A stretch of 64,000 nt of DNA, from the NCBI RefSeq assembly GCF_030845195.1, contig NZ_CP132543.1, positions 1,195,501 through 1,259,500 on the forward strand, read 5' to 3'. The stretch is from Sanyastnella coralliicola. Lineage in GTDB: Bacteria > Bacteroidota > Bacteroidia > Flavobacteriales_D > Sanyastnellaceae. The translations under genes and the position numbers were made by a program. The notes under the pieces are model-generated. The model saw nothing but the letters and a program-made list of their open reading frames with translations, made no database searches and was not told where the DNA came from. This document shows, in pieces, positions 1,709 to 51,977 of this stretch (position 1 is its first letter; every line of letters starts with the position of its first letter).

Positions 1709-2131
1709 ATGGAAGAACTCACGCTCACCACACCCGCACTTTTGTTCTCAGCGATTTCCTTGATCATGCTAGCATATACGAATCGCTTTCTTGCCTACGC
1801 AGCGGTTATCAGAAACCTTCATGACCAGTTTCTGGATAAGATGGATCAAAACCTCCTGCAGCAAATTGCCAATCTGAAAATGCGACTCAACTTGACGCGC
1901 TACATGCAGCTTTTGGGGATTTCGAGTCTCTTACTTTGTGTGCTCACGATGTTCTTGATTTACATCGACTACCACATTCAAGCAGTTTGGGTATTTGGTG
2001 CCGGCTTGTTCCTTCTCCTGCTTTCCCTTGCATTATTGATCTGGGAAATTCAAATTTCTGTCCGCGCATTAGGCTTCCATATTAGTGATATCGAAAATCA
2101 CCTGAAAGAGGTGAAGAAGAGGAAGGGGTAG
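1709..2131 (+). CDS. DUF2721 family membrane protein
   Basis: A 140-residue integral membrane protein resembling DUF2721. There is one hydrophobic segment near residues 9-28, then a charged amphipathic stretch (about 29-66, IRNLHDQFLDKMDQ) and two more transmembrane segments at about 68-88 and 92-114. The C-terminus is charged and likely cytoplasmic (SDIENHLKEVKKRKG). No catalytic residues are evident and the family has no established function. It is transcribed alone: a heptamer array lies upstream and a purine-rich element plus a second array lie downstream. Confidence 0.75.
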   Translation: MEELTLTTPALLFSAISLIMLAYTNRFLAYAAVIRNLHDQFLDKMDQNLLQQIANLKMRLNLTRYMQLLGISSLLLCVLTMFLIYIDYHIQAVWVFGAGLFLLLLSLALLIWEIQISVRALGFHISDIENHLKEVKKRKG

Positions 2132-2200
2132 AGGAAGAGTTGGAGGAAGAGTTAGAAAGAGAATAAGAATTTGAGAGGGACGCATAATATGCGTCTACAC
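2132..2200. repeat. Dispersed element copy 1 with 17-bp palindrome
   Basis: A purine-rich stretch (GAGGAAGAGT-like) leads to the 17-bp block AGAATTTGAGAGGGACG, which is also present at 9629-9644. It is followed by a palindrome at 2179-2195 (GACGCATA, A, TATGCGTC), an 8-bp stem with a one-base centre. A heptamer array follows immediately, as in the second copy near 9.6 kb. Confidence 0.75.
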
Positions 2201-2210
2201 GCTTGATCGT

Positions 2211-2341
2211 GGAACGTAATTCGTGGTTCGTAGTTCGTGGTTCGTAGTTCGTGGTGCGTAGTTAGGTTATAGATTATGGATTATCGTTTCTAGATCTCTC
2301 GTTCAGTTATAGATTATAGATTATAGATTCTAGATTTCTTT
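2211..2341. repeat. Heptamer array 2 (TTCGTGG and TTATAGA families)
   Basis: Units of 7 bp: GGAACGT, AATTCGT, then alternating GGTTCGT/AGTTCGT, GGTGCGT, AGTTAGG, TTATAGA, TTATGGA, TTATCGT, TTCTAGA (2211-2294). After a short phase shift come three TTATAGA and one TTCTAGA (2307-2334). The array runs past the stop codon of the convergent cutC gene, so repeat-like sequence codes for the last CutC residues. Confidence 0.9.
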
Positions 2342-3037
2342 CGTCTCTAGTCTCTCGATCATTGCACGAACCACTCCTGAATCCACCGAAGTATATCCTG
2401 GCGCGAAGAATCCTCTTGAGTAAACTCCTTCTTCTGTGGTGCCTGCTGCTGTGTGGATTTCGTCTACACCTACTTCTAATAAATCATCAATTTGTTCCAG
2501 GCGAATGCTGCCACCAGCAAGAATCATGGGACGTTCTTTGAGGGCTACTAACTCCCTAAGGGTGTCCAGGCCTTCTGCGGCACGTGGTGCTTGTCCTGCG
2601 GTGAGGATGCGGCCATAGCCGAGATCATAAAGGTCTTTCGCTGCTTGTTTGAAGTCGTTGCACACATCAAAGGCCCGGTGGAAAGTGATCGGAAGATCGC
2701 CAGCTGCTTTTTTTGCCGCTTCCACGAAAGCGAGGTCAAGATCAAGAGCAGGTGTAAGGCTACCTACAACCACACCGTGAACGCCAAGGTCGGCCATGGC
2801 AGCGATGTCATATAACATAGCCTTCTTTTCATTTTCTGAATACACGAAGTCGCCTTCACGTGCTCGGAGGAGAGGAAAGACTGGTACCCCTGAAATTTCC
2901 AATGCGAGTTTAGTCAACCCTGGAGAAGGAGTGATACCGCCACAAGAAAGGTCAGAGCAGAGTTCAATGCGTTGCGCTCCTCCTTGAAGGGCGTTTTCAA
3001 GAGCGGGTACTCCAGGACAAACAACTTCTAAAAGCAT
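2330..3037 (-). CDS. cutC: Copper homeostasis protein CutC
   Basis: A TIM-barrel protein of the CutC family, about 235 residues. Recognisable blocks are the N-terminal LEVVCPG, RIELCSDLSCGGITPS, FPLLRAREGDFVYS, GVVVGSL, ITFHRAFD, ILTAGQ, ILAGGS and VDEIHTAAG. CutC proteins are linked to copper tolerance in bacteria and animals, but the biochemical activity is unsettled. The ATG at 3037 is preferred because the conserved fold starts directly there; an in-frame start at 3064 would add nine residues unlike the family. The last residues (RLETKEI) are encoded by the edge of a heptamer array, suggesting the C-terminus was reshaped by repeat spread. It lies downstream of a terminator hairpin, so it is probably transcribed separately from the giant gene upstream. 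Confidence 0.9.
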   Translation of the reverse strand: MLLEVVCPGVPALENALQGGAQRIELCSDLSCGGITPSPGLTKLALEISGVPVFPLLRAREGDFVYSENEKKAMLYDIAAMADLGVHGVVVGSLTPALDLDLAFVEAAKKAAGDLPITFHRAFDVCNDFKQAAKDLYDLGYGRILTAGQAPRAAEGLDTLRELVALKERPMILAGGSIRLEQIDDLLEVGVDEIHTAAGTTEEGVYSRGFFAPGYTSVDSGVVRAMIERLETKEI

Positions 3038-3065
3038 GACAGAATTTTTGCGGAAGATAGGCAAA

Positions 3066-3097
3066 GAAAAGCCCCGCTGTGAGCAAGGCTTTTTCTT
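3066..3097 (-). terminator. Rho-independent terminator of the 2128-residue T9SS cargo gene
   Basis: Read on the minus strand, AAAAGCC (3087-3093) pairs with GGCTTTT (3067-3073) across a 13-nt loop and is followed by a T-rich tail. It lies 12 bp past the stop of the giant gene. Confidence 0.7.
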
Positions 3098-3108
3098 AGG
3101 GTGGTTGA

Positions 3109-6100
3109 TTATTTGGTAATCACTGAACGGTAACTGTTTCCAGGGACGTCCAGGATTAGATAATACATTCCTGAAGGAAGTAAGGCGAGCTTGGTGTTGA
3201 TGATATACTTACCATTCAACAGCACGAGGTCTTCCTTATTCCAGATGTGTACAAGGCGTGCATTGGCATCATACAAACGAACTTGTGGTTCATTGCTCCA
3301 TACCGAACTCGCTTCAATAATGATCTCTTCACTAAATGGTACAGGATAGACACTGATGCCTGCGCTTGTCATTTCTTCGATTCCCGTGATCGTTACATCT
3401 ACTTCGTTCGATAGCATTGACGTACAGAAATCAGAAGCCAAGGTCACGGTGTACACTCCGCTTTCAACAGGGATAAAGGCATTTCCTTCTTGTGTAATTG
3501 GGGTGCCATTGAGGTACCATTGGATTTCATAGTTGTTCGGGTTGAACACGCTGATGGTTGTTCCATCGAATGTGATTTCAGGTGTTTCCGGGGCCGCCTC
3601 AATGTTCAAGCCATCAATAGCGAAACCTTCACATCCGGCTCCATTCTCCACGTAGTATGCTACTTCGTGGTATCCTGGGTCGTAATCTGAGACGTCAAGT
3701 GTACTTACCAATACACCATCAATAGTGTATTGACCTCCTTCTGGTGTGCCAAAGTCAAGAGGAATGATCCCTTCGCTTTGACATACTGAAGTAGGCATCG
3801 TAAGCTCCACCATCGGAGTCTCGACAACCTCGATTGTTGAAGTAACCATTCCGATACAACCATGAACGTTTACCGCCATGTATGTGATGTCATAAGTGCC
3901 AGGGTCTACCATCGTTGGAACAAAGTAGTTTCCATCAGTTCCTTCTCCTTCGAAGATTCCTCCAACTGGATTCGGATCCATATGATGAGCTTCCGCGTTA
4001 GCGCAAATCTGTTGTGGAAGATCCATAAACGGTTCAGGAGTAGGGTTGACATCCAAAGTAGCGATAGCCGTATTCACACACCCTGATTCCGCAGTGTATG
4101 AATAGTTGATCGTGTAACTTCCTGCTGGAGCTTGGTCTGCATCGAACTGGTCACCGGTCACGAATTCACCCCAGAAGCTACCTCCTGCAGGAGACACTTC
4201 AGGTAGGTTCACCAGACCTTGTCCTTGACAGGCTGGTTCTGCTGGGTACATCGTAATCTCAGGAAGATCATAGACGTTCACCGTTAGCTCACCTTCAGCC
4301 ATACAACCGGCTGCATTGCTGTATTCGTAATGAAGCGTATGCGTTCCGGCGTTAGCCAATTCAGGATAGAACATACCACCATCCACTCCCGGACCGCTCC
4401 AAACACCACCCATTGGCGTAGCGCTTAGATTTACGGCAACGGAGTTGGTACACATATCACCCACTTCAACAAGGGCAACAGAAGGGGCATCGTTCACTTC
4501 TACTGTAGTGGTAGCTTGGAACAAACAACCTTCTGGAGAGTAGTGGTTGTAGGTGATTTCGTGCATTCCCAATCCGGCTTGTGATGGGTAGAAGATGTTG
4601 TTCGTTACAAAGTCACCTTCGTAGAATCCTCCACTTGGCTCACCTTGTGGAAGTTCAAACTGACCTTCTTGAGTACACAGCACTGGAAGTTCAGGAATTG
4701 AGACCGCCTGAGCTGGGTAAATAGTCAACGGGTCACCGCTGGTAGGGCCAACAGATGCTGGGTTTGTGGCTTCCAAACGGATTCGGTAGTTGAAACCAAG
4801 AGGGATGTTTAACGGCACTGTCATCCATTCGCTTCCATTGCCTGTATTAGCTTGGAATTCTCCTAGAATGGAAGGGAAGGAGAAGCCTCCATCGGCATCG
4901 GAAAGCTGAACAACAAAGGTGTTCGCCGGACCAAAGCCTTCTGAAGTCACGTTCCATAGAATTTCAAAATCAGAGCCAGGACATAGTTCAGTAGAGGTAG
5001 TCATGACTTCCGCTACAGGTCCGTCTCCGCCACCGCCGTTGTTGTCATCAGTTACGGTGAGATAAACTTCAATGAGGAAGATCTCAGCATTCACGGCATT
5101 TGAAGACACCATGACTTCTGAATAGTAATCTCCCGGATCTAATTCGTTTGTGTCAATTTCGACTGTGCTCGTGGCAATGTTTCCTGGCGCAAGAACTCCA
5201 TTTTGAGGCATGCCGTTGGAAATCCATGTATCAGGGATAAACGTTGAAAGCATCCACTGCAGGTCTTCATCACCGTTGTTGATGATGTCGAAATCATAGC
5301 TACCAGACTCTCCTGGAGCCAATTCAATTTCCATGACGTTCGGGATCACTGCGATCGCTGGGCCGGAGTTTCCTCCACCACCGTTGCCCCCGCCATCACC
5401 ATTCACAGTTAGAGTGACTGGAATAACGAGTTCAGACGCGTTCGATGCATTGGAAGTGATCGTGATGCTGGAATTGTAAGTTCCTGGATTGAGTCCATTG
5501 GTATTCGCTGCTGCAAACGTGTTGTGTTCACCATTTGGTGGAATACTACCCGAAGGAGGGTTGTTCACGTTCAACCAAGTGTCTTGAGCCGGAGTAGAAA
5601 TATTCCACTGAAGGTTCGGACTTCCATCATTGGAAAGGGTGAAAGGTTGGGTTGCATTCGAATTGGCATCAGCGAAGAAGTTGATAGCTTCTGGGTTTAC
5701 AGTAATAATTGGCGTATCACCTCCATTACCGCCGCCGCCATTGCCGCCGCCGTTACCTCCACCGCCGTTTCCGTCGCCACCATTGTCTCCACCGGCATCT
5801 CCATCAACAGTCAAAGAAACTGGAATGATGAGTTCAGGTGTATTGGATGCGTTCGAAGTGATGGTGATAGATGAGGTGTAGCTTCCTTCTGAAAGACCGT
5901 TGGTATTCACGGCAGCAAAGGTGTTGTGCTGACCGTTAGGCGGGATACTACCCGAAGGAGGGTTGTTCACGCTTAACCAAGAGTCTCCAACCGGAGTGGA
6001 TACATTCCACTGCAAATTTGGACTACCATCATTTGAAATCGTAAATGGAATGGTCGCGTTAGAATTAGCTTCAACAAAGAAGTTCAAGTTCATCGGATTC

Positions 6101-9100
6101 ACAGCGATGATTGGGTTTCCACCGCCACCGCCACCGCCGCCGTTTCCGCCGCCGTTGTCGCCTCCACTGCCGTCACCTTCAGTGACGTTCAAGTTAAATT
6201 CAACTACAAGTGTTGGGTTTAACGAGGCATTGCTATTGAAGATCACGACACCAACGTAGTTACCGGCACTTACGCCGTTGGTGTTGATGTGTACATCCAA
6301 TTCTGTTGAGCCGCCATCGGCATCTAGAGTGCCTCCAGATGGAAGGACTTGCGTCAACCAATTGGCGGTGACATCGGTGCTTCCACTCCATGTAACGTTC
6401 TCAGTTCCGTTATTGGTAATAGTCAGTCCGTAAGTAGTTTGCTGTCCGGTAGCAATGGAGAGGAATACTACCTCTTCAGATACTTCGAACATACCTGTGT
6501 AATTCACTTCTACCAGTACAGGAATTTCCACTTCTGGGGTGTCAGGATCGTTGGAGGTGATGTAGATATTACCCCCGTGGATTTCATCTCCAGGTAAGTT
6601 CGCTGCGTCGAATGTAATGTACTGAGCAGATGATTCACCTGGGTTCAATGTACCTGAAGTCTCAGTAGGTATGATCCAATCTTGATCAGTGCTGACCTCA
6701 TAAGTTAACGGCACCACACCTGTATTCTCGATAAAGAGCTGTTCGCTATCAGAGTTTCCTGCAATAATCGTTTTTGAGATAGCCGTTGGAGACCAGACTA
6801 TATTCGGATCTGGCGAAACTGGAGCCACACACGGACCAAATTCAGACGAATGGTTTGTCGCGACATTGGTCATCAATGCAGAGAAAACAGCATGTTCGGC
6901 TTCCGGTGTATGTGTATAGTCTACAGAAGCTTGTCCGCTACCATCAGTAGTCATTTCAATGCTTGTGATGTAGTATCGTCCTTCTCCGTATTCAGAGTCA
7001 TCGCATTCCGCGTTAGCGTATAGATCTACCACATAAGTAGTAGAAGGAGCAGCGTCAACGAGAATGGAGATAATGTAATCATCTCCGCTTTCAGCTACCT
7101 GTTCGATAACTGGGTGATTGATACCGTCATTCGGACCTGCATCAGCGTCACCAGCATCGTTTTCGTTCGGCCACCAATCGAATCCGCGGTCAATACCTAA
7201 ACCGCCATTTCCGAAGATGGTATTGCCTCTGAATGAGTTACCACTTCCCGCAGTACTTAGCAGCACTAGTCCGTGTAGGCCAACGCCGGTAATCGTATTG
7301 CCTTCTCCGGCCAGCGTGCCGCCAATTTGATTATCGCTACAGCTTACTCCAATGAACACACCAGCGATTGCTGTTCCATCGTTGGTGGTAATGGGATTGC
7401 CGTCAGTGTCGGTGTTAATGAAGTTTCCGGTGACAATATTGTTGTTCGCTGCTTGATCAAGAACCAAGTGTGCGACGCCTACAGTTTGCGGACACATCAC
7501 GTTATTCGTGATAATGTTACCAGAAGAACCGCTAGTTGCGAGAATAGCAGTGTTGTATCCACCTACTTGAGTGGTGAGATCTTGGCTAGCGCCGAAGATG
7601 TTTTCGTCAATGAGATTGTTGTTTGAATTTTCGAGGGAAATAGCGCGATTGTAGCCTCCGAGTGCTACGTTGTTGATCATCGAATTTTCATCTCCCGAGT
7701 TGAAGGTGATGGCTGATGCCCCTTCATTCACCAGCATCGTGTTTCCTTCTCGGTTGGTGTCGAACTTGTTGTTCTGGATAATCGAGTTGGATCCGTCTCC
7801 CCAGATGCTACGAAGGATAATATTCGCTTGCTCGGGGTTTTCTCCTCCGATTCGAGTTCCGTCGACATCGTAGAGCACCACACCGTACGATCCATTTGTT
7901 CCTAGGTCTTGCGCACCATCTGTTTGGATGAAACATCCTTCAATAAAACAGCTATCAGCACGAACAGCGATGTTAGTGTTTCGGAATTGGATGCCCTTCA
8001 GACCGCAATGGTTGACGTTGAATTCAAAGGCTTCGTTGTTGTTGAAGTCAATGATTACTGAGTGTTGGGCGTTGTTTGTCTCGTTCCATGCGGCCGTATT
8101 GGGAACGTACCCATCTTGAGTCGACCCATCAAAAACAACAGGACGATTGACACCACCTGCTGGCCCATCAAGGCTAATTACTCCACCACTTGGAATGTCG
8201 AATCCAATGACGATCAATGAATCTGCGTGTGAAGCAGGTCGCATGTTCGACTCCTGTAAAGCCGCAAGCACCGTACATCCACCTGCTTCTGATTCACAGA
8301 TACCGTCGCCAGGACGAGCATCATATGAAGAAGCAGTGGAGTTTACGGTCCATCCATCAGTCTCAAATTTGTTCAATTGGAAAGGCACACGAACTAGGTC
8401 TCGGTCGTACGTTGACCCAGGATGCCAGCGTGTATAGTACAGCCAGTTATCTCGACCTGTTTGTGTGAAGTTTCGGGTAGTGTCGTTGTGGTCGATGACG
8501 CTTCCGTAAAGCGTTCGGTCAACGTTCGTTGGAGCATTGACATTGGTCCATACGTTCGATTCCAAGATGAGTTTTGGGGCAGACCAACTGATGAGATCAT
8601 CTGAAATTCGGTAATAGAATCCCCAAGTATCGTCAGCGACACCGGGTCCAACAACCATCCATTTTTCGAAGTAGGTATTCCACGAAAGTGAACCTTGCAT
8701 GAAGATGTCAAGAGGATCAACTTTGTGCATCGCCGGGCTTGCAACATCATCATTGTAGATATCAACGAAGTCCACTGTGAATGCTTCACCATCCCATCCC
8801 AACCAGCTTGTGGGGTCTTCAGGAGTTAGTGTACGAACAATTCCGGTTCCTCTATCTTGACCTCCAATTGTTTCGATTTGGAACAACATGTAATAGTACC
8901 CATCACGAGGATTGAGAACGATATCACTAGGCTTGAAGTATCCACCAGGTCCGCTTCCCTCATTAAATTCATAAGGGGGAGCCAAGGCCAGATGGTCCGG
9001 ACCTGGATCATGTGTATAGGTCTTACCAGAATCGGTTGAAGTTGCGAAAGTGATTGAGTTGTACCAACACTCAAGGTATCCACCCGGACAGCCGTAGTTG

Positions 9101-9495
9101 TGACCATGCCATTCGTTGTGGATATAAGCGTAGATCGTTGCCCCGTCATAAGTGAACAACGAGTGAATCCAACCGTGATCGTCATGATCTCCAATACTTG
9201 AATTCAAATTCGATTCGTACACTGGACCATTAGCACAATCACGAACCAAGTTGTCAAAATCTGGTCCGATCATTCGGAACGCGTCGTAGTGTCCTGCGAT
9301 CATTTGAATATTCCCATCGGCATCGCGGAAGAAGCGCGCTTCGTTATCAGGAATATCCTCCGTCTCACAGTTGTCTGTAGTCCAATCAAATACTACTTCT
9401 TCTGCGCCGGTAATGGTACAATCATCAGGATATACCATCTGTGCTGAGAGGGATACACAGAAGAGAGAGAAAATGAGAATAGCTGTTGTTTTCAT
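3109..9495 (-). CDS. Giant T9SS type A cargo: beta-helix plus BACON-like and Ig-like repeats
   Basis: A 2128-residue exported surface or secreted protein. A signal peptide (1-18) is followed by a region with FATSTDSGKTYTHD and FKPSDIVLN motifs resembling glycosidase/propeller ectodomains (about 50-390). A right-handed parallel beta-helix follows (about 420-800, many NNIVTGN and GNSFRGNTIFG turns). Five BACON-like beta-sandwich repeats of about 105 residues (about 890-1480) contain SNDGSPNLQW and PPSGSIPPNG motifs, separated by Gly/Asn/Asp linkers. Then come Cys-containing Ig-like repeats (about 1490-2000) and a type A sorting domain at the C-terminus (SVYPVPFSEEIIIEA, PSGMYYLIL). BACON-like copies three and four are nearly identical in DNA (about 5.4-6.2 kb), pointing to recent duplication. 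It probably binds or processes a polysaccharide; no catalytic site was identified. Two CGCTAACGCGGAA words encode ANAE. Confidence 0.85.
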   Translation of the reverse strand: MKTTAILIFSLFCVSLSAQMVYPDDCTITGAEEVVFDWTTDNCETEDIPDNEARFFRDADGNIQMIAGHYDAFRMIGPDFDNLVRDCANGPVYESNLNSSIGDHDDHGWIHSLFTYDGATIYAYIHNEWHGHNYGCPGGYLECWYNSITFATSTDSGKTYTHDPGPDHLALAPPYEFNEGSGPGGYFKPSDIVLNPRDGYYYMLFQIETIGGQDRGTGIVRTLTPEDPTSWLGWDGEAFTVDFVDIYNDDVASPAMHKVDPLDIFMQGSLSWNTYFEKWMVVGPGVADDTWGFYYRISDDLISWSAPKLILESNVWTNVNAPTNVDRTLYGSVIDHNDTTRNFTQTGRDNWLYYTRWHPGSTYDRDLVRVPFQLNKFETDGWTVNSTASSYDARPGDGICESEAGGCTVLAALQESNMRPASHADSLIVIGFDIPSGGVISLDGPAGGVNRPVVFDGSTQDGYVPNTAAWNETNNAQHSVIIDFNNNEAFEFNVNHCGLKGIQFRNTNIAVRADSCFIEGCFIQTDGAQDLGTNGSYGVVLYDVDGTRIGGENPEQANIILRSIWGDGSNSIIQNNKFDTNREGNTMLVNEGASAITFNSGDENSMINNVALGGYNRAISLENSNNNLIDENIFGASQDLTTQVGGYNTAILATSGSSGNIITNNVMCPQTVGVAHLVLDQAANNNIVTGNFINTDTDGNPITTNDGTAIAGVFIGVSCSDNQIGGTLAGEGNTITGVGLHGLVLLSTAGSGNSFRGNTIFGNGGLGIDRGFDWWPNENDAGDADAGPNDGINHPVIEQVAESGDDYIISILVDAAPSTTYVVDLYANAECDDSEYGEGRYYITSIEMTTDGSGQASVDYTHTPEAEHAVFSALMTNVATNHSSEFGPCVAPVSPDPNIVWSPTAISKTIIAGNSDSEQLFIENTGVVPLTYEVSTDQDWIIPTETSGTLNPGESSAQYITFDAANLPGDEIHGGNIYITSNDPDTPEVEIPVLVEVNYTGMFEVSEEVVFLSIATGQQTTYGLTITNNGTENVTWSGSTDVTANWLTQVLPSGGTLDADGGSTELDVHINTNGVSAGNYVGVVIFNSNASLNPTLVVEFNLNVTEGDGSGGDNGGGNGGGGGGGGNPIIAVNPMNLNFFVEANSNATIPFTISNDGSPNLQWNVSTPVGDSWLSVNNPPSGSIPPNGQHNTFAAVNTNGLSEGSYTSSITITSNASNTPELIIPVSLTVDGDAGGDNGGDGNGGGGNGGGNGGGGNGGDTPIITVNPEAINFFADANSNATQPFTLSNDGSPNLQWNISTPAQDTWLNVNNPPSGSIPPNGEHNTFAAANTNGLNPGTYNSSITITSNASNASELVIPVTLTVNGDGGGNGGGGNSGPAIAVIPNVMEIELAPGESGSYDFDIINNGDEDLQWMLSTFIPDTWISNGMPQNGVLAPGNIATSTVEIDTNELDPGDYYSEVMVSSNAVNAEIFLIEVYLTVTDDNNGGGGDGPVAEVMTTSTELCPGSDFEILWNVTSEGFGPANTFVVQLSDADGGFSFPSILGEFQANTGNGSEWMTVPLNIPLGFNYRIRLEATNPASVGPTSGDPLTIYPAQAVSIPELPVLCTQEGQFELPQGEPSGGFYEGDFVTNNIFYPSQAGLGMHEITYNHYSPEGCLFQATTTVEVNDAPSVALVEVGDMCTNSVAVNLSATPMGGVWSGPGVDGGMFYPELANAGTHTLHYEYSNAAGCMAEGELTVNVYDLPEITMYPAEPACQGQGLVNLPEVSPAGGSFWGEFVTGDQFDADQAPAGSYTINYSYTAESGCVNTAIATLDVNPTPEPFMDLPQQICANAEAHHMDPNPVGGIFEGEGTDGNYFVPTMVDPGTYDITYMAVNVHGCIGMVTSTIEVVETPMVELTMPTSVCQSEGIIPLDFGTPEGGQYTIDGVLVSTLDVSDYDPGYHEVAYYVENGAGCEGFAIDGLNIEAAPETPEITFDGTTISVFNPNNYEIQWYLNGTPITQEGNAFIPVESGVYTVTLASDFCTSMLSNEVDVTITGIEEMTSAGISVYPVPFSEEIIIEASSVWSNEPQVRLYDANARLVHIWNKEDLVLLNGKYIINTKLALLPSGMYYLILDVPGNSYRSVITK
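3991..4003 (-). repeat. 13-bp dispersed word, A variant
   Basis: Plus strand TTCCGCGTTAGCG, i.e. CGCTAACGCGGAA on the minus strand. It encodes A-N-A-E in the giant T9SS cargo gene. Confidence 0.8.
7006..7018 (-). repeat. 13-bp dispersed word, A variant
   Basis: Second CGCTAACGCGGAA copy in the same gene, again encoding A-N-A-E. Confidence 0.8.
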
Positions 9496-9584
9496 TGGGT
9501 CACAATTTCGAACGCAAGCTATCTTACTGGTATTCAGTATGCTGTAGGGGAGAGGTTTAAGGGGATGTCAGATTTTGGGAAGTG

Positions 9585-9664
9585 GAGGGTAAGAGGGAGA
9601 GGAAGGGATAGAGGAAGAGTGAGAATGAGAATTTGAGAGGGACGTAAGAATTGCGTCCGCACAA
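9585..9664. repeat. Dispersed element copy 2 with compensated palindrome
   Basis: Same organisation as 2132-2200: a purine-rich run, the shared block AGAATTTGAGAGGGACG (9629-9644 region), then an inverted repeat at 9640-9658. Its stem differs from copy 1 at several bases, yet pairing is kept (one T-G wobble, loop GAA). A heptamer array follows. This and the adjacent arrays fill the 346-bp gap 9496-9841; nothing else was seen in it apart from the rplS terminator. Confidence 0.75.
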
Positions 9665-9665
9665 T

Positions 9666-9742
9666 GGTTCGTGGTGCGTAGTTCGTGGTGCGTAGTTCGT
9701 GGTACGTAGTTCGTGGTGCGTAGTTCGTAGTTCGTAGTAAAT
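9666..9742. repeat. Heptamer array 3a (GGTTCGT/GGTGCGT/AGTTCGT)
   Basis: Ten consecutive 7-bp units alternate between GGTGCGT or GGTACGT and AGTTCGT, ending in AGTAAAT. Same family as arrays 1 and 2. Confidence 0.9.
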
Positions 9743-9751
9743 TGTCCCAAC

Positions 9752-9789
9752 GGACGCCGGACGCCGGACGCCGGACGCCGGACGCCGGA
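9752..9789. repeat. Heptamer array 3b (GGACGCC x5)
   Basis: Five perfect GGACGCC units and a partial sixth. The period is again 7 bp but the sequence is GC-rich and unrelated to array 3a. It ends directly at the rplS terminator. Confidence 0.9.
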
Positions 9790-12123: not shown

Positions 12124-12332
12124 TTAGCATGTTTAGCTTCTAGAGATTGGTTGTTAGTTCTTGGTTGTTAGTTCTTGGTTGTTAGTTCTTGGTTGTTAGT
12201 TCTTGGTTGTTAGTTCTTGGTTGTTAGTTCTTGGTTGTTAGTTCTTGGTTCTTAGTTATGGATTATCGTTTCAGGACCCTAGACTCTCGACTAATTAATC
12301 GAAAATCTATAATCGATAAGCTATAACTACGG
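12123..12332. repeat. Heptamer array 4b (TTGTTAG/TTCTTGG dimer, then mixed)
   Basis: A 14-bp dimer TTGTTAG-TTCTTGG is repeated about seven times (12151-12248). The 7-bp register then continues through TTCTTAG, TTATGGA, TTATCGT, TTCAGGA, CCCTAGA, CTCTCGA, CTAATTA and ATCGATA-like units. The TTATGGA-TTATCGT pair also occurs in array 2. It fills the divergent gap between the reductase and the YHYH gene; together with array 4a and the hairpin it accounts for most of 12014-12475. Confidence 0.9.
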
Positions 12333-20610: not shown

Positions 20611-20658
20611 TATCTTCTCATGGCATCTACCGCATGGGGATGTGGTTATTGGTTGGCG

Positions 20659-20756
20659 GTGGACGGTAGACGGTTGACTGTTGACGGTAGACGGTGGACG
20701 GTGGACTGTTGACGGTAGACGGTACTTAGTGCACCGTGGACTGTGGACCGTGGACC
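20659..20756. repeat. Heptamer array 5a (GTGGACG/GTAGACG/GTTGACG)
   Basis: Fourteen consecutive 7-bp units of the form GTNGAC[GTC], broken only by GTACTTA and GTGCACC, which keep the register. Same family as array 6. Confidence 0.9.
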
Positions 20757-20801
20757 GGAGGCTTCTGAATATACTTCTGATTTCAGCATTTAGACTTTCG
20801 T

Positions 20802-20843
20802 CCACGAACCACGAACCACGAACCACGAACCACGTCCTACCGT
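20802..20843. repeat. Heptamer array 5b (CCACGAA x4)
   Basis: Four CCACGAA units plus CCACGTC and CTACCGT. This is the reverse complement of the TTCGTGG family in arrays 1-3. Confidence 0.9.
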
Positions 20844-20852
20844 CCACTCGCC

Positions 20853-25208: not shown

Positions 25209-25320
25209 GTTGACGGTGGACAGTGGACGGTAGACAGTAGACGGTAGACAGTAGACGGTAGACAGTAGACGGTTGGATAATGCACTAACGCCTAACGCCT
25301 AATGCCTATAGCCTAAAAGC
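25209..25320. repeat. Heptamer array 6 (GTAGACR, then TAACGCC)
   Basis: Nine units GTTGACG/GTGGACA/GTGGACG/GTAGACA/GTAGACG (25209-25271). Then GTTGGAT, AATGCAC, TAACGCC x2, TAATGCC, TATAGCC and TAAAAGC follow without loss of the 7-bp register. It occupies the divergent gap before the peroxidase gene. Confidence 0.9.
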
Positions 25321-34028: not shown

Positions 34029-34053
34029 GTTTAGATTTCGACGTTGGTTTGGT

Positions 34054-34134
34054 GTGGAATGTTGAATGTTGAATGTGGAACGTTGAATGATGAATGAATT
34101 CGAGCACTTCTTTCCACGTTCAACATTCCACGTT
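34054..34134. repeat. Heptamer array 7 (GTTGAAT) with inverted arm
   Basis: Units GTGGAAT, GTTGAAT x2, GTGGAAC, GTTGAAT, GATGAAT (34054-34095). After an 18-bp spacer come CCACGTT, CAACATT, CCACGTT (34114-34134), which are complementary to the first arm. The divergent ccmB-glpK gap could therefore fold into a hairpin. Confidence 0.85.
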
Positions 34135-34163
34135 CCGCAAAAAGCTTTCCCTATATTTCTCAC

Positions 34164-51863: not shown

Positions 51864-51966
51864 AAATGTGGCAAGCTACTCACATCGCACCGCTCAACCA
51901 TCTACCCTTGCTGCCTTCCGGCCCTGGGGGAGTTCAATAGGAGCTGGTCGTGTAAGACTTGCCACG
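51864..51966 (-). ncRNA. ffs: Signal recognition particle RNA, small type
   Basis: A 4.5S-type SRP RNA of about 100 nt on the minus strand. The conserved apical part reads CCAGGGCCGGAAGGCAGCAA (around 51908-51928): the GGAA tetraloop region and the asymmetric loop that binds Ffh M domain. The ends pair: 5' GTGGCAAG (51958-51965) with 3' CTTGCCAC (51868-51875), followed by a T-run at 51857-51866 acting as terminator. A TACCTTTG element lies 4 bp upstream of the deduced 5' end. It would target membrane proteins to the Sec/YidC machinery. Confidence 0.92.
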
Positions 51967-51969
51967 GCG

Positions 51970-51977
51970 CAAAGGTA
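51970..51977 (-). promoter_or_regulatory. Bacteroidota-type -7 element of ffs
   Basis: Minus-strand TACCTTTG ends about 5 bp before the deduced 5' end of the SRP RNA, the right spacing for a -7 element. Confidence 0.6.

Follow-up and report, generated by a model that had tools for sequence, protein, structure and literature searches.

Hairpins beside GA-rich tracts in Sanyastnella coralliicola are probably REP-type palindromes with divergent RAYT-like partners

In a 64,000-nucleotide stretch of the Sanyastnella coralliicola genome (the window; positions 1195501–1259500 of the single 4,097,636-base contig of this genome, G000), two short hairpins stand directly downstream of GA-rich tracts. 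We consider it likely, with a probability of about 0.8, that these hairpins are REP-type (repetitive extragenic palindromic) elements moved by a REP-associated tyrosine transposase (RAYT), and that they are neither folded RNAs nor parts of a composite with the heptamer arrays nearby. The evidence comes from a genome-wide family of such hairpins, from differences at orthologous sites in a relative, and from four hairpin families, in G000 and two genomes of the same genus (G001 and G002), each of which flanks a gene for a divergent RAYT-like protein (HUH transposase).

The initial annotation of the window had described two copies of an element with an identical block, a purine-rich lead upstream and a heptamer array downstream. 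All of these parts are present at both copies, within the following corrected limits:

2102–2163, plus strand: GA-rich (purine) lead of copy 1 (tract scan); it begins within a DUF2721 gene (1709–2131), whose 3' end and stop codon it includes
2166–2182, plus strand: identical block AGAATTTGAGAGGGACG of copy 1, with the GAGAG head
2178–2196, plus strand: hairpin of copy 1, GGACGCATA-A-TATGCGTCT, outer pair G-T (covariance model, folding)
2207–2263, plus strand: heptamer array 3' of copy 1, judged a neighbour outside the element
9575–9632, plus strand: GA-rich (purine) lead of copy 2 (tract scan); the G001 version is 24 bases longer
9628–9644, plus strand: identical block AGAATTTGAGAGGGACG of copy 2, with the GAGAG head
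9640–9658, plus strand: hairpin of copy 2, GGACGTAA-GAA-TTGCGTCC, one T-G wobble (covariance model, folding)
9667–9738, plus strand: heptamer array 3' of copy 2, judged a neighbour outside the element

The exact block occurs at these two places only in the whole genome. As annotated, the inverted repeat pairs in both copies. In copy 1, GACGCATA (2179–2186) pairs with TATGCGTC (2188–2195), with an additional G-T pair at 2178/2196; in copy 2, GGACGTAA (9640–9647) pairs with TTGCGTCC (9651–9658) through one T-G wobble. Folding as single-stranded DNA gives −7.0 kcal/mol (z −3.5) for copy 1 and −5.6 kcal/mol (z −2.4) for copy 2, with centroid folds of 7 pairs and 8 pairs (one T-G), respectively, each with a loop of 3. 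The claim that the stems differ and yet pair was overstated: both do pair, but only a single pair (T-A to A-T, adjoining the loop) is altered on both sides between the copies, and the other changes, C-G to T-G at an inner pair and G-T to G-C at the outer pair, are one-sided. The two window copies by themselves are therefore thin evidence for compensatory pairing. Copy 1 lies between the DUF2721 gene, which ends at 2131, and CutC on the opposite strand. Copy 2 is flanked by two minus-strand features, rplS and the start of a 2128-amino-acid reading frame. A motif derived from further copies (up to 3 mismatches allowed) matched copy 1 on both strands (2 matches versus 0.02 expected in the window); copy 2 was not matched by this motif in the window.

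A search of the genome with a covariance model, which the initial annotation had proposed, provided the wider family. The model was built from 13 aligned hairpins, some of which came from a palindrome scan and hence were preselected for pairing. It returned 93 matches in the 4.10 Mb genome (E ≤ 10) at 91 distinct places, the lowest-ranked rows of this list being doubtful. Family counts are based on 90 merged matches, after the removal of two opposite-strand doubles, by which the real neighbour at 3667865 was also lost. These 90 hairpins are found on both strands (58 plus, 32 minus), and their heads read GTAG (38), ATAG (15), AGAG (12), TTAG (8), CTAG (2), GAAG (2) and TGAG (1), with 12 unassigned. 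Stems of very different sequence remain paired: among 103 matches (95 distinct rows) from a set of G000 loci, 98.6% of 760 cells are paired versus 78% in shuffles, and both-side changes occur in seven of the eight stem pairs. This high figure is partly circular because the covariance model rewards pairing; moreover, some palindromes are counted on both strands, and there is overlap between a few of the loci.

Hairpins of this kind stand beside RAYT-like genes. L046 is the single G000 gene matched by PF01797 (25.9 bits, cut-off 23). Just upstream of it are about 12 direct copies of a hairpin with an ATAG head followed by GGGCACGCATGCGTGCCC, for which we found 31 genome-wide matches within 3 mismatches (strands counted separately). 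A tblastn search with the L046 protein over a subset of loci identified four further RAYT-like genes adjoining hairpins:

L153 (G000) and its G001 ortholog L265: hairpins with a GTAG head before GGATGGATGAAATCCATCC and a GTAG head before GGACGGATGAAATCCGTCC
L284 (G001): GAGAG head, the same as that of the window copies, before GGACGGAT..ATCCGTCC, on both sides of the gene
L269 (G002:C1:84927–85800): GTAG head before GGACGCATTTAATGCGTCC, and an array of GTAG before GGACGCACCTCGTGCGTCC

The direct array that follows L269 has a 45-base hairpin unit, and the layout resembles that of L046. The PDHxH, WQ and Y..NP motifs (HUH and catalytic tyrosine) are invariant in all five proteins, and the top NCBIfam match of each is NF047646, the REP-associated tyrosine transposase family (60.9, 48.4, 52.9, 51.7 and 49.8 bits). 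The predicted structure of L046 is of low confidence (mean pLDDT 60). In a Foldseek search with this model IS608 transposases came out on top; 4er8, a RAYT with a REP hairpin, ranked 13th by E-value and had the top query-normalised TM-score (0.44) among the first 29 matches. PF01797 was rejected as a RAYT detector: it found one G000 gene and missed L153, L284 and L269. The PF01797 genes of G001 (on C22) and G002 (on C2) encode different proteins, and no L046-like hairpin array was seen in the flanks inspected around them.

In the mechanism that we envisage, the element would comprise a conserved 5' head (GAGAG in the window copies; GTAG, ATAG, TTAG and CTAG in their sisters) directly before a GC-rich hairpin. 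A RAYT, as a single-strand-specific Y1/HUH transposase, would recognise hairpin and head in single-stranded DNA, and would copy or move the hairpin to new places. It would then be the fold that is recognised, so that one arm may change if the other does, which would explain stems that differ and yet pair. We infer this mobility, the choice of target and any benefit to the cell from the arrangement of hairpins and genes. The initial annotation had suggested a protein-bound cruciform, and a protein-bound hairpin is right in kind; instead of a cruciform binder, its partner is likely to be a RAYT that acts on DNA in single-stranded form.

Comparison with G001 (93% identity with the window across 9.8 kb) revealed both presence/absence and exchange of hairpins. 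This comparison covered the 25 of 90 matches for which both flanks (at least 250 bp) are present in G001. At five of these sites (3765426, 2825860, 3875612, 3743681 and 3615564) the hairpin is absent from G001; the automated alignment of 3743681, to unrelated DNA, is false, and the orthology of 3615564, which lies within a cluster, is unsure. This pattern is compatible with mobilisation by a RAYT. At the other 20 sites (3743681 excluded), 150 stem pairs are unchanged, three are changed on both sides and paired, three are changed on one side and paired, five are changed on one side and broken, two are changed on both sides and unpaired, and four contain gaps. Pairing is thus mostly kept among orthologs, and compensation is no commoner than breakage. 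The annotated preservation of pairing in changing stems is supported across the family and between orthologous sites, with the reservations that the model that finds the copies favours paired ones and that one-sided breaks among orthologs are as frequent as paired double changes. The paired double changes are confined to two GA-tract hairpins (3668081 and 2825971). The G001 ortholog of the hairpin at 9640–9658 reads GGACGCAA-AAA-TTGCGTCC, with C-G replacing the T-G wobble of G000. The ortholog of 2178–2196 reads GGACGTAA-AAA-TTGCGTCC, which includes a T-A to A-T change; its aligned flank was too short for the 25-site count. Stems are better conserved than their surroundings: with 3767501 and 3615662 excluded from the 20 sites, which leaves 18, 304 of 326 stem columns (93%) are identical versus 1492 of 1755 flank columns (85%), and gaps occupy 3 of 329 stem columns versus 261 of 2016 in the flanks. 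We dropped the notion that the hairpins are restricted to G000 and G001 among 40 genomes (E ≤ 0.001), since G002 gives 111 matches, arrays included, at E ≤ 10, and we claim no absence from the other 37.

Several observations weigh against assigning these hairpins to the REP/RAYT class. The head of the window copies, GAGAG, differs from the typical REP head GT[AG]G, and the RAYT of the GAGAG type was found only in G001 (L284), not among the subset of loci searched in G000. All five RAYT-like proteins score below the curated NF047646 cut-off (80 bits), only one exceeds a Pfam cut-off, two have no Pfam match at E ≤ 0.001, and PDB sequence searches found no relative of these proteins. PF01797 genes occur in 21 of the 40 genomes, both with and without an R1 match at E ≤ 0.001. 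Finally, the five one-sided breaks outnumber the three paired double changes among the 20 orthologous hairpins, and selection for pairing base by base is unsupported.

This last point also speaks for the strongest of the alternatives, by which pairing is not selected at all and the arms are matched by template switching during replication within the palindrome, or by gene conversion that swaps whole hairpins. In-place double changes are indeed blockwise: at 3668081, GGGGTGCACATGTGCACCC stands against GGGACGCATCCTTGCGTCC, and these forms closely resemble other copies in the same gene. Likewise, in the 2869162 region, where orthology is known from one flank only, the GA tract of G001 lies further upstream and is followed by a different palindrome. 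However, this explanation does not account for the RAYT-like neighbours, the shared head or the hairpins at sites that are empty in relatives, and it is at odds with stems that are better conserved than flanks. We therefore regard it as unlikely on its own, although such processes can act jointly with RAYT-driven movement of REP-type hairpins.

A regulatory leader, an mRNA 3'-end stabiliser or a terminator, kept for its RNA fold, appears improbable. Pairing is kept, G-T pairs included; copy 1 begins about 45 bases past a stop codon; and many REPs are transcribed according to Di Nocera 2013 (PMC3733652). However, the structured RNA that the initial annotation had offered gave no Rfam match at gathering thresholds and no terminator-like site at either hairpin, and we rejected it. 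The strand distribution of the family, the copies between divergent frames and inside three reading frames, and the absence of several hairpins from G001 also argue against it. The sole Rfam match in the window is a small signal recognition particle RNA elsewhere (51865–51971, minus strand; RF04183, 96.2 bits).

The initial annotation had concluded that the heptamer arrays belong to a larger composite element; a single mobile unit made up of the purine lead, the hairpin and the array can be dismissed as very improbable: the window copies have all three parts in common over 140 bases at 79% identity (family D5), but 41 of 46 matches in a 130-base composite search are the array part alone (two span the composite), period-7 arrays are lacking within 220 bp of 67 of the 90 hairpins, and the lengths of lead and array vary while the hairpin stays. 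The remaining 23 of 90 compare with 456 of 2877 non-ORF (outside open reading frames) positions (16%), which are not mutually independent, so that any enrichment of heptamers near hairpins is at most mild and the arrays are common background. Between G000 and G001 their lengths differ by whole units beside a hairpin that is retained. These arrays are unstable tandem repeats in their own right and share intergenic regions with the hairpins; PMC4692102 discusses that heptameric repeats are over-represented in bacteria. In the window, intergenic arrays of period 7 (or 14) are found at 1539–1626, 2207–2263, 9667–9738, 9751–9789, 12147–12257, 20651–20847, 25212–25273 and 34053–34096, with widely different units (GTGGTTC, CGGACGC, TTGGTTGTTAGTTC, GACGGTA, TGTTGAA). 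By eye, the arrays at 20651–20847 and 34053–34140 are each followed by an array of complementary units, with which they might pair to form a large inverted repeat.

The association of the purine lead with a subset of the REP-like hairpins is real. Of the 90 hairpins, 10 are immediately preceded by 40 bases with at least 80% purine; in 464 kb of background, the share is 0.10% over all positions and 0.21% over non-ORF ones. This excess is inflated by four of the ten having been model seeds and by the purine bias of the model's first positions. The other six (3743681, 2798165, 2974193, 2825971, 2825860 and 2884651) came from the search alone. All eight places with CACATGTG in the core have 75–93% purine over the preceding 40 bases. 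The subset that sits directly 3' of GA-rich tracts includes both window copies. G001 is GA-rich and hairpin-free at 3765426, 3875612, 3667865 and 2825860, where G000 carries a hairpin, and the lead length varies by 6 to 36 bases between the two genomes at other sites. Because the relative carries such tracts without a hairpin, the tract is probably a landing site or a tolerant context, outside the element proper. As predictors of hairpins, 3 of 17 GA tracts (464 kb) adjoin a perfect stem of at least 6 versus about 0.85 expected from shuffles; these are too few to rely on, and the scan ignored G-T pairs and therefore missed copy 2.

Some hairpins lie in frame in the Glu-rich linkers of three reading frames:

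L003 (3667535–3668464), 348 amino acids, beside a frame that we take to be rsmI: three copies plus one degenerate copy
L160, 377 amino acids: three copies
L063, 379 amino acids: one copy

A single reading frame is used, with the consensus R-[GD]-A-x-x-[HR]-P or near variants. Six copies located by script have the same codon start (RGAHVHP twice, RDASLRP, RGSHVRP, RGAHVRP and RDAHVHP). Inspection of the DNA gave a further copy, GDAYIRP, in this frame; the degenerate copy has SVAPVHP. These copies would presumably be translated. No Pfam match was found for the three proteins at E ≤ 0.001. In the L003 gene, G001 carries partly different hairpins in the same linker, again in frame. In 22 loci of 21 other genomes, some of which hold only part of the gene, there was no model match (E ≤ 1); since the model matches only G000 and G001, the hairpins in this gene were probably gained. 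One hairpin each is absent from G001 in the L160 and L063 genes, the L063 ortholog reading EEELEGEVELEE.

Taking these observations further, it is conceivable, at somewhat less than even odds, that one REP subfamily (mostly with a TTAG or CTAG head and a stem centred on CACATGTG) is a GA-tract specialist. Its machinery might enter polypurine DNA and so colonise Glu-rich protein linkers, where the hairpin would survive as one of its frames is free of stops. Hairpins might then be swapped like cassettes, so that selfish DNA would keep rewriting disordered linkers.

Other palindromes occur in pairs. At G000:C1 3614600–3622000 (L169), 3831000–3840500 (L172) and 183200–185200 (L145), a hairpin of the GCGCAT-ATGCGC type is followed after about 40 bases by TGTAGGG[AG]CGCATGAAATGCGTCC; these clustered two-hairpin units look like REP doublets. 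In a second doublet, at L149, L166 and L167 and at L266 and L248 of G001, a GGCGCC..GGCGCC hairpin is followed after about 20–25 bases by GTAGGGACGGATGAAATCCGTCC. The 2128-amino-acid frame next to copy 2 (3109–9495, minus strand) contains BACON_2 and Ig-like domains of the HYDIN type, and its match to Por_Secre_tail falls just under the cut-off.

With this analysis, a curiosity of two copies becomes a testable system: within a single genus, several hairpin families differ in their heads, and each is accompanied by a divergent RAYT-like gene of its own. With empty and exchanged sites between two genomes this similar, it would permit tests of how specific the RAYTs of Bacteroidota are for head and stem. 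To the cases in print, the in-frame copies add one in which selfish palindromes supply sequence to protein linkers and may prefer GA tracts. Should no more than the ordinary part be borne out, this is one further REP/RAYT genome.

Among known systems, Rickettsia palindromic elements (RPEs) likewise occur in frame inside genes, and RPE-4 and RPE-6 have their counterparts in intragenic repeats of R. conorii (PMC3733652). The present copies, likened to RPEs by description, differ in occupying the Glu-rich linkers of three genes in one reading frame; in all three, in-frame hairpins are absent from or different in a relative, and for one gene absence extends to outgroups. The Y1 transposases of the IS200/IS605 group (IS608) share the HUH and tyrosine motifs, and the L046 model matches IS608 structures. 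In contrast to that group, the RAYT-like genes adjoin REP-like arrays or clusters, and NF033573 (IS200) gives 24.8 versus a cut-off of 55 for L046 and no match for the other four. The closest likeness is to REP or GTAG palindromes with their RAYTs (REPtrons; PMC2817692, PMC3733652, PMC6006769): a short GC-rich hairpin after a conserved head, some ninety copies, several families per genome, families that flank RAYT genes (ATAG and GTAG in G000; GAGAG in G001), an array adjoining the RAYT, complementary stem changes with retained palindromy, and some intragenic copies. Published rules place a GTAG or GTGG head 0–2 nucleotides before the stem (PMC6006769), whereas AGAG precedes the stem in both window copies. 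The same source describes a loop of 2–5 and stems with 7–20 fully paired positions, of whose first four bases at least three are G or C, and both window copies conform to this (basal bases GACG in copy 1, GGAC in copy 2). Beyond the head, the differences from REPtrons are the divergence of the RAYT-like proteins and the position of a subset in GA-rich tracts. In the open-licence PMC literature, which was partially covered, we found no report of a GAGAG head with its own RAYT, of REPs in GA tracts or of copies that keep to one frame in Glu-rich linkers. PMC12306157 lists predicted REPs of Flavobacterium species, and REP subfamilies defined by alternative complementary stem residues, as well as REPs inside genes, are described by Di Nocera 2013 (PMC3733652). 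Complementary stem change in REPs is thus already published, and the hairpins of this window would hence represent a known kind of element.

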